Shown piece after piece: positions 2,520-24,554 of a stretch of DNA of 24,846 bases; the stretch's first letter is position 1; the number at the start of each line of letters is the position of its first letter. Source of the DNA: a virus; IMG/VR virus record IMGVR_UViG_3300046163_000023, positions 1-24,846 of that record; one strand, written 5' to 3'. The translations under genes and the position numbers were made by a program. The notes under the pieces are model-generated. The model made no database searches, was not told the origin of the DNA, and saw only the letters and a list, made by a program, of their open reading frames with translations.

Positions 2520-2988
2520 ATATTACCCTTTTTCTAGTTTTAGTCCAATAACTGCGTGGTATAAATTTAGATTGTTTCCATCTCAAATTACCATCACCTA
2601 ATTTACCACATAATTGGCGTTTACCTTCCATAATTAGTAGGCCAGGAGGATATGCTGACTCTAGAGATGAGTCTGGTTGCGTTAACTGTTCTTGGGTTTG
2701 GTATTTTATATCTGGTTCTATTTGTAGCTCAAACGCTGCCTGGTACATTCCATCTAGGAGTAGTCTAATTCTATCAGGATTCCACGGACCTATTAGGCTA
2801 GCATCTAGATCTCTAGTTACAGGTTTATCTAATATACCTCCATAGACCCATAACTCATAATCAGACCAGTCCATTTGTTTTACTTGATCTAACCATTTGA
2901 TGAATCTTGCGTCATCGAGACTGGCAATAGGTAGAAATTTGTCGCATTTTAGTACCATAGTATATGTATCAGATTCAACTTTGAGCAT
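2518..2988 (-). CDS. Candidate pol-beta-type nucleotidyltransferase
   Basis: This leftward gene of 156 residues is set between rightward structural genes. I chose the ATG at 2986-2988 because its leader is A/T-rich; the longer frame to 3063 would overlap the next gene. Residues about 50-70 read VYGGILDKPVTRDLDASLIG, a GG followed eight residues later by DLD. A strand EPDIKYQ follows about 32 residues on. GG-x8-DxD plus a later acidic strand is the metal-binding layout of the pol-beta nucleotidyltransferase superfamily. The C-terminus contains PGLLIMEGKRQLCG and RSYWTKTRKRVI, rich in basic residues that could bind nucleic acid. The substrate is unknown. Host takeover or tRNA modification are possibilities only. 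A host-type -7 box (TAACTTTG, 3019-3012) lies upstream. Confidence 0.5.
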   Translation of the reverse strand: MLKVESDTYTMVLKCDKFLPIASLDDARFIKWLDQVKQMDWSDYELWVYGGILDKPVTRDLDASLIGPWNPDRIRLLLDGMYQAAFELQIEPDIKYQTQEQLTQPDSSLESAYPPGLLIMEGKRQLCGKLGDGNLRWKQSKFIPRSYWTKTRKRVI

Positions 2989-2990
2989 TT

Positions 2991-3006
2991 TTATATTTAA
3001 TAGTAT
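2991..3006 (+). promoter_or_regulatory. Late-promoter-like box in a 36-base divergent gap
   Basis: TTATATTTAATAGTAT matches the core of the boxes at 5237, 12673 and 20396. Here it sits 18 bases from the start codon at 3025, not directly against it. This argues that the motif is a transcription signal and not simply a translation leader. The gap also holds the leader of the leftward gene starting at 2988. Confidence 0.6.
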
Positions 3007-3011
3007 AGAAA

Positions 3012-3019
3012 CAAAGTTA
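3012..3019 (-). promoter_or_regulatory. Possible host-type -7 box for the leftward gene
   Basis: On the minus strand, TAACTTTG matches the Bacteroidota -7 consensus TAnnTTTG exactly and lies 23 bases before the ATG of the leftward gene at 2988. A TTTG exists further upstream, but the spacing is longer than the usual 19-21 bases, so the -33 element is not convincing. Confidence 0.3.
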
Positions 3020-3024
3020 ATATA

Positions 3025-3390
3025 ATGACGCTGTACGTTGATACACCTATACAAACAATACACGTAAATCTACCTAATTTAGATGCAGGTGGATGGGTAT
3101 TTGATTTGACTAGCCAATACTCACATGAGACACAGGAATGTCCTGCAACGCTCATATCTACGAATGATAGATATAGTACATTAACTGTACAATTTCCTGC
3201 TGGGTTTGAAGATGAGCACAAGAATGGTATTTACTATTACTCTTTACGAGATGGCGATCTAGAACCCATAACATATGGATTGGTTAAAATAATAACACAA
3301 CCAGGAGGTGATATAGGTACTACTACATTTAACGCTGGAGCAGAAACAGAGGAAAGAGTAGCAGATGTATTTTATAGACCAAATTACTAA
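3025..3390 (+). CDS. Small structural protein, beta-rich
   Basis: This 121-residue protein precedes the portal gene by eight bases. It is composed of beta-forming segments, with NGIYYYSLRD (about 70-79) and ITYGLVKIITQPGG (about 85-98) the clearest. This pattern recalls small Ig-like or BppU-N-like virion proteins that sit before the portal in Bacteroidota phages. It carries no enzymatic motif. It begins a transcription unit (box at 2991) with portal and connector, so a role in the head-tail interface or in decorating the head is likely. The exact function is unknown. Confidence 0.5.
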   Translation: MTLYVDTPIQTIHVNLPNLDAGGWVFDLTSQYSHETQECPATLISTNDRYSTLTVQFPAGFEDEHKNGIYYYSLRDGDLEPITYGLVKIITQPGGDIGTTTFNAGAETEERVADVFYRPNY

Positions 3391-3398
3391 ATAATAAT

Positions 3399-4571
3399 AT
3401 GGAAGAACAAAACAATTTATATTCTATTACTGGCTCAGAGTTTAGCGCAATACACCTACCAGTAATTAAAGAAGTTAGAGGCAAAGATTATATGTCATTT
3501 GGACAAGATAACTTGTTTCCACAAACTCTAATTGACCTATACGATAACTCAGCAATGCACCATACTTGTGTTGATGCAATTACTGAAGGTATTTTAGGTG
3601 AAGGCCTTGAAACAATTGGAGACGAATATATTAATAGTCAAGGTGAAACTATTGATGACATTTTTGAAAAAATTACATTAGACTATGCGCTTTTCCAAGG
3701 CTATGCACTCAATATCATCTGGAATAAAGAAGGTTCTGCCATTGCTGAAATCTATCATCTCCCTTTTGCAAATGTTAGATCAGGTAAAAGAGACGAAGAC
3801 GATCAAGTCAATGAGTACATGTATTCGTCGAATTGGACAAACCTTCGTAAATACCCTTTTGAAACCTATTCGTGCTTTGATGCAACCAATAACAAAGGAG
3901 ACAATGCGTCTCAAATTTATTATTGTTTTAACTATACTCCTGGTAATGAGGTTTATCCATTACCTAGTTACGTTGGTGCGCTAAACGATATAAATCTAGA
4001 TCATAGAATTTCTGTATTTCATAATAGTAATATTTCAAATGGATTACAACCTTCTATGATGATCAAGATGAACAATGGTATTCCAACACCAGAAGGTCAA
4101 AGAGAAATCTACAGAACTATTGAGGAAACCTTTTCAGGTGAAAATAATAGCGGTCGTTTCTTTTTAACATTCTCAGATGGTCCAGAAAGAGCAATGGAAG
4201 TACAAACCATAGATGCTGCAAATGATGATTACTATATACAACTTGAGAATAGAATTTCAAGTAGAATCCTAACTGCACATAGAATTACTTCACCTTTATT
4301 ACTTGGTATTAAAGATGCAAGTGGATTTAGTAACAATGCTGATGAGATTGCAGTAGCATATGCACACTTTGAAGGTACAGTAATTGAACCAAAAAGAAAG
4401 AAGATTGCAAGTACATTTGGATATATTTTGAAGTTAGCTGGTTACAATGTTAAACTTCAAGTTAAACCAAATAGATTATTATCAATGAATGAGGTGTCTG
4501 ATCAGCCTGGTAATATAGCACAAGATGCACCAAACACTAGAGACACACAGGCATACCCAGACGAAATATAA
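3399..4571 (+). CDS. Portal protein
   Basis: This 390-residue portal forms the dodecameric DNA channel at one head vertex and docks the terminase. Recognisable parts are the N-terminal SFGQDNLFPQTLIDLYDNSAMH region (about 32-53), the central LQPSMMIKMNNGIPTPEGQ segment (about 216-234), the FSGENNSGRFFLTFSDG turn (about 245-261), and the ITAHRITSP-like stretch that here reads ILTAHRITSPLLLGI (about 291-305), followed by GFSNNADEIAVAYAHFEGTVI. These are conserved in HK97-type portals. The length is slightly short, typical for Bacteroidota phages. It lies between a small structural gene and the connector, and on this map it is 7-8 kb from the terminase, which is unusual. Confidence 0.85.
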   Translation: MEEQNNLYSITGSEFSAIHLPVIKEVRGKDYMSFGQDNLFPQTLIDLYDNSAMHHTCVDAITEGILGEGLETIGDEYINSQGETIDDIFEKITLDYALFQGYALNIIWNKEGSAIAEIYHLPFANVRSGKRDEDDQVNEYMYSSNWTNLRKYPFETYSCFDATNNKGDNASQIYYCFNYTPGNEVYPLPSYVGALNDINLDHRISVFHNSNISNGLQPSMMIKMNNGIPTPEGQREIYRTIEETFSGENNSGRFFLTFSDGPERAMEVQTIDAANDDYYIQLENRISSRILTAHRITSPLLLGIKDASGFSNNADEIAVAYAHFEGTVIEPKRKKIASTFGYILKLAGYNVKLQVKPNRLLSMNEVSDQPGNIAQDAPNTRDTQAYPDEI

Positions 4572-7778: not shown

Positions 7779-7829
7779 ATATATAAAAGGTAGACTGATA
7801 GCTGCGCTGCTATAAAGTTTATTTAGGCC

Positions 7830-7863
7830 GAAAGGGTATCAGAAATGGTACCCTTTCTTTTTG
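7830..7863 (+). terminator. Intrinsic terminator after fibre genes
   Basis: GAAAGGGTA (7830-7838) and TACCCTTTC (7849-7857) form a perfect 9-bp stem with a 10-base loop, followed by a T run. It ends the 5251-7778 unit. Its T run overlaps the promoter-like sequence at 7861. Confidence 0.9.
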
Positions 7864-7890
7864 AAACAATTTAAAAGATAGATATATAAA
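7861..7890 (+). promoter_or_regulatory. Promoter-like TTGAAACA-N15-ATATAAA, copy 1
   Basis: TTGAAACA (7861-7868) and ATATAAA (7884-7890) are separated by 15 bases. The same two blocks with the same spacing recur at 8062-8091 upstream of the initiator gene. TTTG (7860-7863) to TATA (7883) is 19 bases, close to Bacteroidota -33/-7 spacing. A start a few bases after 7890 would coincide with the first stem of the candidate ncRNA. Confidence 0.55.
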
Positions 7891-8046
7891 CTGTATCAAC
7901 CGTTTTCTTTTTGGTACCAATCACGATTTTGCCATTTTGATCAGGTACCTATTCTTCTAGTTGATTTTTTTGTTTAGGTTGATATAGCTGAGTTAATTCT
8001 ACTCTCAGCAAGGGCGGAGTTTATCGTATTCTTCGCCCTTTTTTCT
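7891..8046 (+). ncRNA. Candidate structured noncoding RNA
   Basis: No open frame was seen here, but the stretch folds well by eye. P1: CTGTATCAACC (7891-7901) pairs with GGTTGATATAG (7977-7987), 11 bp with one G-U. P2 inside it: GGTACC (7913-7918) with GGTACC (7944-7949), extended by ATCA (7920-7923) with TGAT (7938-7941). P3: GCTGAG (7987-7992) with CTCAGC (8004-8009). P4: the terminator at 8010-8046. Only G7987 is contested between P1 and P3. A promoter-like pair ends at 7890, just before P1. So promoter, folded body and terminator are in register for an RNA of about 155 bases. An alternative pairing exists, as GTTGAT also occurs at 7960-7965. The function is unknown; priming or replication control, antitermination or packaging are possible. 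Confidence 0.5.
8010..8046 (+). terminator. Intrinsic terminator before the initiator operon
   Basis: AAGGGCG (8010-8016) pairs with CGCCCTT (8034-8040). The stem is extended by GAG (8017-8019) with CTT (8031-8033), including one G-U, and is followed by six T. Because the fibre operon already ends at 7830-7863, a second terminator 150 bases on suggests that a separate transcript ends here. Confidence 0.85.
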
Positions 8047-8061
8047 GTCTTGACTTTTTTC

Positions 8062-8091
8062 TTGAAACATATTGATATATAGAAATATAAA
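8062..8091 (+). promoter_or_regulatory. Promoter-like TTGAAACA-N15-ATATAAA, copy 2
   Basis: The two blocks and the spacing are identical to 7861-7890. It is the only promoter-like sequence I see before the replication and packaging genes, and it lacks the TATATTTAAT box used before structural genes, so it may be an early or middle promoter read by host RNA polymerase. A TTGACT at 8050-8055 is an alternative -35 element. Confidence 0.55.
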
Positions 8092-8102
8092 GAACAAACA
8101 AA

Positions 8103-8168
8103 ATGGCAATTAAATATAAAAATACGAATTATGAAACGACAATTTTCGAAAGGCTTTATAGCTATTGA
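8103..8168 (+). CDS. Possible 21-residue leader peptide
   Basis: An ATG at 8103 opens a 21-codon frame (MAIKYKNTNYETTIFERLYS plus Y) that overlaps the start of the initiator gene in another frame. It follows an A-rich leader (AAAGAACAAACAAAATGG), a better Bacteroidota start context than that of many genes here, and it lies close to the expected transcript 5' end. It could be a translated upstream frame that tunes initiator synthesis. It could equally be chance in an AT-rich region. Confidence 0.25.
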   Translation: MAIKYKNTNYETTIFERLYSY

Positions 8169-8646
8169 TCAGAGATTATACGACTCTGATTTAGACATTT
8201 ACCACATTAACATTATTTCTTGGATTCTCTCGTATCAAGTACAAGAGCAACCTTTCTTTATGAGTAAAGCAGCACTTGCTGATAAATTCAAGTGCGCTAA
8301 AAGAACTATATACAGAAGATTCGAATATCTTGAGTCATATGGTATCCTAGTTAGAGGTGAAAAATACAAGAAAATGTACAAATATCAGGTTAATATTCAT
8401 AGACTCAATAGGTACCTGTCAGGCACCTATCTTGAAAAACAGGTGCCAGAGAGTCACTCATCTTCTAAAACAGGTGCCTCAGAGTCACCCTATAATACTA
8501 GTACTAATAAAACTAGTTCTAATAAAACTAGTTTTAGAGATGAAGATGATTTTAAATCATCATCTTCATCTAAACCCAAAGCTAAACCTAAAGTGGACGT
8601 TAACAGTCCAGAATTCCATAAATTTCTAAATGATTTAGATATTTAG
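8131..8646 (+). CDS. Winged-helix replication initiator-like protein
   Basis: This 171-residue protein is probably the phage DNA-replication initiator. Residues about 20-95 form a winged helix: IIDW-type opening here ISWILSYQ (about 29-36), FFMSKAALADKFKCAKRTIYRRFEYLESYGIL (about 42-73, helix-turn-helix) and a wing RGEKYKKMYKYQVN. The remainder is low-complexity (three NKTSS-like five-residue repeats, a Ser run, a Lys/Pro stretch) and ends with the short acidic helix HKFLNDLDI, which could contact a host helicase or loader. The middle of the gene carries four AGGTRCC boxes, a tandem 15-bp AT-rich repeat and a large inverted repeat, as in the lambda O gene with its internal origin. It heads the operon. 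A plain transcription regulator is the alternative. Confidence 0.65.
   Translation: MKRQFSKGFIAIDQRLYDSDLDIYHINIISWILSYQVQEQPFFMSKAALADKFKCAKRTIYRRFEYLESYGILVRGEKYKKMYKYQVNIHRLNRYLSGTYLEKQVPESHSSSKTGASESPYNTSTNKTSSNKTSFRDEDDFKSSSSSKPKAKPKVDVNSPEFHKFLNDLDI
8504..8533 (+). repeat. Tandem 15-bp AT-rich repeat
   Basis: Two perfect adjacent copies of CTAATAAAACTAGTT lie here, with a partial copy at 8489-8503 matching at 11 of 15 bases. In frame they encode five-residue repeats (NTSTN, KTSSN, KTSF). Position and composition suit a DNA-unwinding element. Confidence 0.85.
8539..8570. repeat. 12-bp perfect inverted repeat in coding DNA
   Basis: GATGAAGATGAT (8539-8550) and ATCATCTTCATC (8559-8570) are separated by TTTAAATC. 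In the protein this is the EDDFKSSSSS region, so codon choice gives a strong hairpin in a low-complexity segment. Confidence 0.85.
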
Positions 8647-8706: not shown

Positions 8707-8850
8707 ATGATACCAAAAGGAAGAACAAGGTTAACTACCCAAGAAAGACAAAGAATACTAAAGTTACGTTTAGATGGCTTTAGTCTACAGCAAATAGCTG
8801 AACAAACAAACAGATCGATAACTTCAGTTAAACGTGTAGTTTACGCATAA
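8707..8850 (+). CDS. Small helix-turn-helix protein
   Basis: This 47-residue protein has the start MIPKGRTRLTTQERQRILKL. Residues about 11-45 read as a helix-turn-helix of the Hin/resolvase or sigma region 4 kind: a first helix QERQRILKLRLDG, then FSLQQIAEQTNRSITSVKRVV with the two DNA-binding helices separated by the turn after QT. It has no catalytic domain and so is a stand-alone DNA-binding peptide. It lies 60 bases after the initiator gene and 19 before the next one, and is probably co-transcribed. A regulator of this operon is a reasonable guess. Confidence 0.65.
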   Translation: MIPKGRTRLTTQERQRILKLRLDGFSLQQIAEQTNRSITSVKRVVYA

Positions 8851-8869: not shown

Positions 8870-9217
8870 ATGGCAAACAAGATATTTGATAAAAATTATT
8901 CAAACCAGAGTTTAACTATACCTACATCAATATGGAATGATACTAAAATCCATGGTATAGCTAAAATTATTTTAACTCTAATTAAAGCATTTACCAATCA
9001 AGGTAGTAAAACATGTTATGCTTTAACGTTACAAACTGCAAGAATGTGTCATACACATGAAAAGGATATTAAATACAATATGCAGAAGTTACATGAAGCT
9101 GGACACATTAAACTGTTTAAAGATCCAGATTCGCCTACTGGTTGGTCAATCGAGTATACATATAAAGATATTAAACCATCAGCACCAGACTCATCTGGTA
9201 CGTCAGGATTATTCTAG
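8870..9217 (+). CDS. Winged-helix DNA-binding protein
   Basis: This 115-residue protein has a pattern like that of the 8131 product: a strand near SLTIPTSIWND (about 14-24), a helix GIAKIILTLIKAFTNQ (about 29-44), ALTLQTARMCHTHEKDIKYNMQKLHEAGHIKL as the helix-turn-helix and following helix (about 51-82), and a wing with SPTGWSIEYTYK. The C-terminus is short and disordered (APDSSGTSG). No nuclease or ATPase motif is present. It may be a second replication-organising protein or a helicase-loader-like factor. I cannot tell it from a transcription regulator. Confidence 0.5.
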   Translation: MANKIFDKNYSNQSLTIPTSIWNDTKIHGIAKIILTLIKAFTNQGSKTCYALTLQTARMCHTHEKDIKYNMQKLHEAGHIKLFKDPDSPTGWSIEYTYKDIKPSAPDSSGTSGLF

Positions 9218-9228
9218 ATATATACACT

Positions 9229-9717
9229 ATGAACAAACCAGCACCATTACGAGTTAAAGTACCCTACTGGGCAAAAGATATTGAAGATCAAGGTATACTT
9301 TGTTTAGTAGCCTTTATGTATAAAATATCAGAAAAGTATGGTTATGATACCTATACTATAACTAAAAAAGACGTCAACATGATGGTTGGTACCAGAGTTG
9401 GCAAGACATTAAAAGAATTACATGATAGAGCACCTATACTCAAGTTTTGGTTAAACCTACAATGGACTACATTACATTTTTTACAAGTAAACCTAAAGGT
9501 ATACAGACGTAATTGGAATGAAGAAAACAAAAGTTCAGAGTGGGTTACTATTGAAGATGAAAGAACCATTAGAGTATGGTGTTATATTTTAGGTGCATGG
9601 AGGCATCATCTAATAACAGATGATCCTTTTAAATCATCCATAAAAGCAGCAATGCATAATAATGACCAAAAGTTATTTCAATACTGCGATTATGATGCCA
9701 CTGGCAGAAAAGGTTAA
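9229..9717 (+). CDS. Unknown protein of the replication block
   Basis: This 162-residue protein is not recognised. It begins MNKPAPLRVKVPYWAKD and has a helix EDQGILCLVAFMYKISEKYGYD (about 18-39). ITKKDVNMMVGTRVGKTLKELHDRAPIL (about 44-71) could be a third helix-turn-helix or a winged domain. The rest is rich in Trp and basic residues (VYRRNWNEENKSSEW, VWCYILGAWRHHL), which may bind nucleic acid. It starts 11 bases after the previous gene, and its TAA overlaps the next ATG by one base (TAATG), so translation is probably coupled. Confidence 0.45.
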   Translation: MNKPAPLRVKVPYWAKDIEDQGILCLVAFMYKISEKYGYDTYTITKKDVNMMVGTRVGKTLKELHDRAPILKFWLNLQWTTLHFLQVNLKVYRRNWNEENKSSEWVTIEDERTIRVWCYILGAWRHHLITDDPFKSSIKAAMHNNDQKLFQYCDYDATGRKG

Positions 9718-10938: not shown

Positions 10939-11089
10939 CATTTATCGTACCAAAGGGGGTAGACTCTCACTCAAACCAAATGGTGAACCAGTCTATGTAA
11001 TTAGAGCCAAAACCCAAGCTATGGCCAAAGAGGTGCTCGCGCACCTCAAACAACTTGAAAAAAACAGACAAGACAATGAGCAGATTTAA
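10925..11089 (+). CDS. 54-residue basic protein
   Basis: This short frame, MKQFNIYRTKGGRLSLKPNG to its TAA at 11087-11089, starts inside the end of the previous gene and overlaps the small terminase gene by 14 bases. It closes an otherwise empty gap, has a protein-like composition (a basic beta start, then the helix AKTQAMAKEVLAHLKQLEKN) and so is probably real. A 7-bp inverted repeat with a TCGC loop (GAGGTGC 11030-11036, GCACCTC 11041-11047) lies in it. The function is unknown. Confidence 0.55.
   Translation: MKQFNIYRTKGGRLSLKPNGEPVYVIRAKTQAMAKEVLAHLKQLEKNRQDNEQI
11030..11047. repeat. Inverted repeat upstream of the small terminase
   Basis: GAGGTGC and GCACCTC surround TCGC, 29 bases before the terminase small-subunit ATG. 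The AGGTGC half-sites resemble the AGGTGCC boxes in the initiator gene, so it may be a binding site for the initiator or the small terminase. A coincidence in coding DNA is possible. Confidence 0.4.
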
Positions 11090-11429
11090 AGGAGGAGATG
11101 AAAACATCAACCGTAATGGTAGACCTAAAGGTAGTAAAAACAAAGCTACTAAACATATTAGAGAAGCCTATCAAAAACTAACAGAAGACAATCTAGATAA
11201 CATGTCAATCTGGTTAGCACAGATAGCTGCAGAAGATCCAGCAAAAGCCATGGATACAATGATTAGGTTATCAGAGTATATTCTACCAAAACTAGCTAGA
11301 ACTGAAATGACAGGTCAAGATGGTGATGATCTATTCAAGAACATTAGATTTGAATTTGGACCTGGTGTTAATTCAGAAGACAGAGATCAAAGCATAGACG
11401 AAGACTTCGATATTAACTCTATTATTTAA
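11076..11429 (+). CDS. Terminase small subunit
   Basis: This is a 117-residue protein from the ATG at 11076. A longer frame from a TTG at 11055 exists, but the ATG is a better start and keeps only a short overlap with the previous gene. The N-terminus reads MSRFKGGDENINRNGRPKGS, a GRPKGSKNK element found at the start of many small terminase and DUF5681-like proteins, probably DNA-contacting. It is followed by helices IREAYQKLTEDNLDNMSIWLAQIAAED and KAMDTMIRLSEYILPKLARTEM (about 33-88) and an acidic tail. Its TAA overlaps the next ATG by one base (TAATG), coupling it to the large subunit. It would recognise the packaging site and load the large subunit. Confidence 0.75.
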   Translation: MSRFKGGDENINRNGRPKGSKNKATKHIREAYQKLTEDNLDNMSIWLAQIAAEDPAKAMDTMIRLSEYILPKLARTEMTGQDGDDLFKNIRFEFGPGVNSEDRDQSIDEDFDINSII

Positions 11430-24464: not shown

Positions 24465-24498
24465 TTTGTTTTTGTTTTACTTTAATTAATTATTACTC

Positions 24499-24550
24499 TA
24501 CTAATATACCACAAATATTTGACATAAAAAAATATTTGAGCACTTTTTTT
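24499..24550 (-). promoter_or_regulatory. Leftward promoter-like repeat, copy 2
   Basis: This is the second copy of the element at 249-300: 35 identical bases (24499-24533) plus the A/T run at the same offset (24542-24550). It lies 34 bases from the start of the leftward gene at 24464 and just after the stop of the metallopeptidase gene (24555). The differing eight bases between the two conserved parts are presumably spacer. Confidence 0.7.
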
Positions 24551-24554
24551 CAAA

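Follow-up and report, generated by a model that had tools for sequence, protein, structure and literature searches.

The initiator O of phage lambda forms dimers, and its minimal site is an imperfect inverted repeat of 19 bp (PMC7466680). The rep gene of pSK41 carries four Rep boxes in its central part, where the origin encodes a linker of the protein, and these boxes are bound by a DnaD-like domain at the N terminus of Rep (PMC5703833). The window in the present analysis, which is the whole stretch of 24,846 bases of a virus record, has structural genes that include those for a portal and a terminase (Pfam and PHROG scans). At positions 8410-8571, it very probably contains the replication origin of a small marine phage; this candidate origin lies within the gene for its initiator, the 8131 protein, and is predicted from the sequence to be bound by that protein. 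Lambda ori has four annotated iterons inside gene O, and the window has three inside 8131-8646. When lambda iterons (TCCCTC-AAAAC-GAGGGA) were extracted and treated alike, they had a 5-bp spacer, as do the window dyads, and the dyad AGGTACC-TGTCA-GGCACCT spans 19 bp around this spacer, as in the lambda O site. In both phages, an AT-rich stretch directly follows the iterons and is followed by an inverted repeat. A lambda-like layout had been proposed in an earlier note made from the letters of this DNA, and it held when the window was set against the lambda record and 16 relatives, with iterons, AT-rich stretch, and inverted repeat all located in the initiator gene.

The putative initiator gene (8131-8646, plus strand) encodes a product of 171 aa, which matched phage replication initiation families of PHROGs with a best E value of 3e-11, the family annotated as replication initiation O-like at 1e-7, and Pfam HTH_36 just above the cut-off. 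Fifteen winged-helix proteins from the same gene slot, that of the window included, were aligned, and an AlphaFold2 model built from this alignment predicted a confident winged helix at residues of approximately 7-100, disorder at 104-148, and a single helix at 160-168. Fold searches with the model returned the winged helix without singling out one family; the Z score was 9.2 for the DnaD N-terminal domain and weaker for the Rep initiators 4pt7 (7.6) and 5kbj (7.4), and no solved structure of lambda O was among those listed. The division into a DNA-binding N terminus and a separate C terminus, as claimed in the earlier note, was supported by this prediction. The short acidic helix that it placed at the C terminus was found as a helix that is not clearly acidic, the net charge of the last 25 residues being +1; the tails of most relatives are acidic. 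Short tails similar to FLNDLDI in the window are present in L115 (FNINDLDI) and L095 (METLDIN), and in a second slot protein of L135 (LWLKNLDI), which suggests, as far as sequence can, that they serve as protein-docking tails.

The DNA encoding the disordered linker carries three imperfect 19-bp dyads on the plus strand, the starts of which are exactly 31 bp apart and the consensus of which is AGGTRCC-N5-GKCACYY: iteron 1 at 8410-8428, the dyad given above; iteron 2 at 8441-8459 (AGGTGCC-AGAGA-GTCACTC), the weakest copy in the window; and iteron 3 at 8472-8490 (AGGTGCC-TCAGA-GTCACCC), which adjoins the AT-rich block. Four AGGTRCC boxes in two orientations had been reported here; both orientations are present, and the matches number five, at 8410(+), 8411(-), 8422(-), 8441(+), and 8472(+), representing half-sites of the three dyads and five of the nine matches in the whole window. 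The double match at 8410(+) and 8411(-) reflects the palindromic AGGTACCT. When the ORF was recoded synonymously 3000 times, AGGTRCC matches averaged 0.31, with a maximum equal to the five observed. The self-match at a lag of 31 nt is 51 nt long with a score of 27, against a maximum of 22 in 6000 synonymous recodings, and of the 25 best lagged repeats listed for the window, no other is out of frame. As 31 is not divisible by three, the reading frame differs between dyad copies (LEKQVPESHS and SKTGASESP), and a repeated peptide cannot be the source of the repeat. These comparisons of sequence show that the 31-bp repeats are under constraint at the level of the DNA.

The AT-rich block at 8491-8536 (plus strand) is the presumed DNA-unwinding element, as judged from its repeats and low duplex stability. 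The tandem 15-mer expected after the boxes is present at 8492-8506 and 8507-8521 (87% identical), and a third, closely matching stretch occupies 8522-8536. By duplex stability, the block is one of the ten weakest stretches in the window, but others are as weak, so that stability by itself proves little. Nearly the same block follows the iterons in L027, L130, L090, and L095. Inside the block, in these four phages and the window, Thr was encoded by ACT in 19 of 19 cases and Ser by AGT in 11 of 12, compared with 8 of 34 and 12 of 70, respectively, outside the block in the same five genes, the relatedness of which means that the Fisher p values exaggerate the strength of this bias. On the 3' side of the block, an inverted repeat at 8538-8571, described previously as one of 12 bp, has arms that are perfect over 13 bp (8538-8550 and 8559-8571) and a loop of 8 nt; its score was 15.0 against a maximum of 12.5 in 60 recodings, and the inverted repeat was without significance in L109, L110, L012, and L124. 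In L036 and L004, 22-bp repeats are followed by AT-rich non-coding DNA of the GGTAAATAAT type, of which only the end is covered by the locus sequence of L003, and an O-like ORF is absent from the slot sequence covered in these three phages. In L028, the GGTAAATAAT AT-rich element lies inside the initiator gene, preceded by 22-bp-phased repeats. The occurrence of this element in both coding and non-coding settings argues for a function at the DNA level.

A search of viral contigs with the 8131 protein alone returned no relative. Using the terminase and the conserved 9937 gene, we reached approximately 150 loci, the nearer of which have the same gene order. No relative was found at the DNA level among cultured phages, nor was any cultured relative with a mapped origin found. 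The closest matches in bacterial genomes include three contigs of approximately 24 kb in one Flavobacteriaceae MAG, from which a flavobacterium is a probable guess for the host, the binning of phage contigs being uncertain. Near the ends of the window contig, there is an imperfect direct repeat (221-304 and 24469-24553, 82.6% over 86 columns).

Among these relatives, the content of the slot that lies upstream of the 9229 homologue varies greatly, and in many of them it is a winged-helix gene. A winged-helix initiator gene occupies this slot in 16 related uncultivated phages, with in-gene iterons that have the 5-bp spacer and other box sequences. The pitch is 22 bp with five copies in L109, L110, L132, and L012; 23 bp in pairs in L035, L011, L097, L116, L159, L147, and L108; and 31+22 bp in L027, L130, L090, L095, and L136, the window having 31+31 bp. 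The comparison of box spacing suggested in the earlier note therefore returned a constant geometry with differing box words, and when homologous initiators were compared closely in search of relatives that had kept the protein and lost the boxes, none was box-free. At the four inner positions of the arms, 91, 73, 89, and 88% of iterons were complementary, against about 4-40% at shifted centers; these figures, from 56 iterons of 17 phages (window included) plus lambda, are descriptive, the sites having been chosen by eye after the repeat results. The repeats, their constraint as DNA, the initiator-type winged helix, and a layout common to the relatives and lambda are all shown by the sequences and their comparison.

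In the recoding test applied to the relatives (400 recodings, floor p 0.0025, in-frame repeats uncounted), out-of-frame in-gene arrays reached p 0.0025 in L109, L012, L127, L124, L092, L132, L110, L112, L115, L082, L130, L159, and L136, and also in L100. Weaker arrays (p 0.005-0.04) were obtained in L011, L147, L027, L097, L035, and L116, and dyads were visible in L090, L095, L121, L028, and L108, although the p values of these were not below 0.05. Eight control genes of the window gave no out-of-frame array in the same test. In-frame repeats were present in L002 (36 bp) and in L145 and L135 (24 bp). A cruder scan found no repeat above shuffles in 22 of 46 distinct slots, and it also missed arrays that the finer test detected. 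The slot of L161, a Flavobacteriaceae MAG contig, has no intact O-like ORF (2749-3566) and contains remnants that resemble the L108-type initiator and have several stops as well as the iteron-like GGTCAAAAAGAGCC, which may represent decay or an assembly error. Three near-perfect 35-bp repeats are located at the start of the L107 locus (1-107).

Box and recognition helix appear, from their sequences, to change together among closely similar initiators while the geometry is constant. L112, L110, L132, and L109 have closely similar proteins with the recognition-helix regions KPRNYNNIL, KSRKYFTII, SARTYCRTL, and SRNTYKRCL, and their boxes are TGCA, TGCA, TGCC, and GGCCC, respectively. In the 23-bp group, in which recognition helix and box likewise differ together, the arms are GGAC (L035), GGTC (L159), CGTC (L147), and AGTC (L108), and the opposite arm is complementary in each; dyad symmetry is kept because both arms change. 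This apparent co-variation is read from a side-by-side comparison of sequences.

The way in which the candidate origin may function is inferred by analogy with lambda at every step, from binding and dimerization through unwinding to origin activity and, above all, recruitment. Dimers of the 8131 product would bind the three dyad iterons through their winged helices and would lie on one face of the DNA, the 31-bp pitch corresponding to about three helical turns. The assembled complex may then open the adjacent block of AT-rich 15-mers, at which the host replisome would be recruited, most likely via the C-terminal tail of the initiator and/or small downstream proteins. This means of recruitment is the likeliest because the proteins scanned include no recognized P-like loader, helicase, or polymerase. 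The Pfam and PHROG scans of window proteins returned none of these apart from a weak DnaD-like match of the 8870 product, in agreement with the earlier note, which had seen neither a polymerase nor a helicase gene. The GC skew of the window has no clean turning point and is uninformative on the origin.

Three genes follow the initiator on the plus strand. Translations revealed a 47-aa helix-turn-helix ORF at 8707-8850, which is also present in L036, L003, and L004. The small DNA-binding-type protein encoded at 8870-9217 weakly matched a DnaD-like loader PHROG (phrog_186, 2.9e-5), has a C-terminal GLF tail, and is possibly an accessory replication protein; similar proteins occur in L003, L004, L036, L113, and L147. 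The endings of these proteins in the window, L003, L004, L113, and L147 (SGLF, SKLF, SLFDI, and NSLF) are reminiscent of clamp-binding tails, and some proteins of this type occur where the O-like gene is absent. The third gene, at 9229-9717, adjoins the initiator slot and encodes a conserved core protein of the phage group, which weakly resembles the RepE/Rep winged helix in fold (best Z 5.5) and has no Pfam match.

The best surviving alternative, which we nevertheless regard as improbable, is that the array is an operator: the 8131 protein would act chiefly as a repressor on a site within its own gene, and replication would start elsewhere. MarR/ArsR-type regulators are numerous among the folds similar to the 8131 model, and GGTACC sites also occur upstream at 7847, 7913, and 7944, in the leader between the structural genes and the initiator (7779-8130, plus strand). 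However, these sites fit the iteron matrix poorly and are not among its best matches, whereas the array lies approximately 280-360 nt into the ORF beside the AT-rich block and the inverted repeat. The family matches of the 8131 protein are replication initiators, and the same slot in relatives can hold initiator-like genes together with AAA+ loader-like genes, as in L007 and L025, in which an initiator-like gene and a gene for a helicase-loader-like AAA+ ATPase were assigned by eye. The pair of GGTACC sites at 7913 and 7944, which are 31 bp apart, was considered as part of the origin and dropped, neither being among the best matrix matches. The leader also contains two terminator-like elements, each a hairpin with a T-run, at about 7834-7864 and 8010-8046, and similar leaders are present in L161 and L036.

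Small terminases are often helix-turn-helix proteins with pac sites nearby or within their genes, and the array may on this ground be a packaging (pac) site of the kind that some headful phages carry within the gene for the small terminase. We consider this to be less probable still: the place of a small terminase is better fitted by the gene at 11055-11429, which lies directly upstream of the large terminase, is 56-84% identical across relatives, and has a weak DUF5681 match, while the 8131 slot, at a distance of 2.4 kb, is freely variable and has its matches in replication families. Plasmid partition sites can also contain iteron-like arrays, and a centromere-like partition or plasmid-maintenance array bound by the 8131 protein is conceivable, but very unlikely, as no ParA/ParM-type gene was recognized in the scans made and the AT-rich block and the replication-family match fit an origin better. 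The view that the repeats are simply low-complexity coding sequence, for which the predicted disorder and low complexity of the linker speak, was refuted by the recoding tests, the 31-nt repeat being out of frame and abolished by synonymous recoding and the 22-, 23-, and 31-bp arrays of the relatives also being out of frame.

An origin within the initiator gene in this group would extend the lambda-type plan to phages that infect another bacterial phylum, the hosts being inferred from MAGs. The relatives offer closely matched pairs of protein and site that differ in specificity, which makes the recognition code of the winged helix directly testable, and the recruitment of a host helicase by a phage without a recognized loader likewise becomes directly testable. 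We advance only tentatively, leaning slightly against it as a whole, the combined proposal that the initiator-origin pairs of this uncultivated flavophage lineage form a natural library, recognition helix and in-gene iterons having changed specificity jointly many times at a fixed dyad geometry, and that part of this lineage starts replication without a phage-encoded helicase loader, the C-terminal tail recruiting the host machinery directly. In the open-license papers searched, such origins were not described for phages of Bacteroidota, and the box words and spacing of the window origin were not found; Rfam gave no match.

Lambda P loads DnaB, and the P gene is adjacent to the lambda origin, whereas no P-like gene was recognized in the window. 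The iteron pitch of 31 bp lies outside the 20-24 bp of lambda, the initiator is 171 aa long against 299 aa for lambda O, and the box words differ. No homology to lambda O was detected when the 8131 alignment was compared by hhalign with one O sequence, that of lambda (probability 0.1%), but the PHROG family annotated as O-like does match the 8131 product. RepA_N proteins of the pSK41 type are matched by the window in the central boxes and the DnaD-like N-terminal domain, the similarity of fold being partly that of a generic winged helix. The C-terminal domain of pSK41 Rep consists of five helices, and this protein also contains a region that interacts with DnaG; the window protein has one predicted C-terminal helix, and no RepA_N domain was matched in the 8131 product in the Pfam scan (E<=1). 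Iteron plasmids of the Rep_3 type, such as that of RepE, also combine iterons beside an AT-rich unwinding element with a winged-helix initiator, as in the window; the same scan (E<=1) matched no Rep_3 domain in the 8131 product, and it is the neighboring 9229 protein, not the initiator, that weakly resembles RepE. Taken together, the candidate origin is built like lambda ori and probably works like it, and because of its pitch and the lack of a recognized adjacent P gene, we regard it not as a lambda ori, but as a variant of the lambda plan that also resembles the origins of pSK41-type plasmids.
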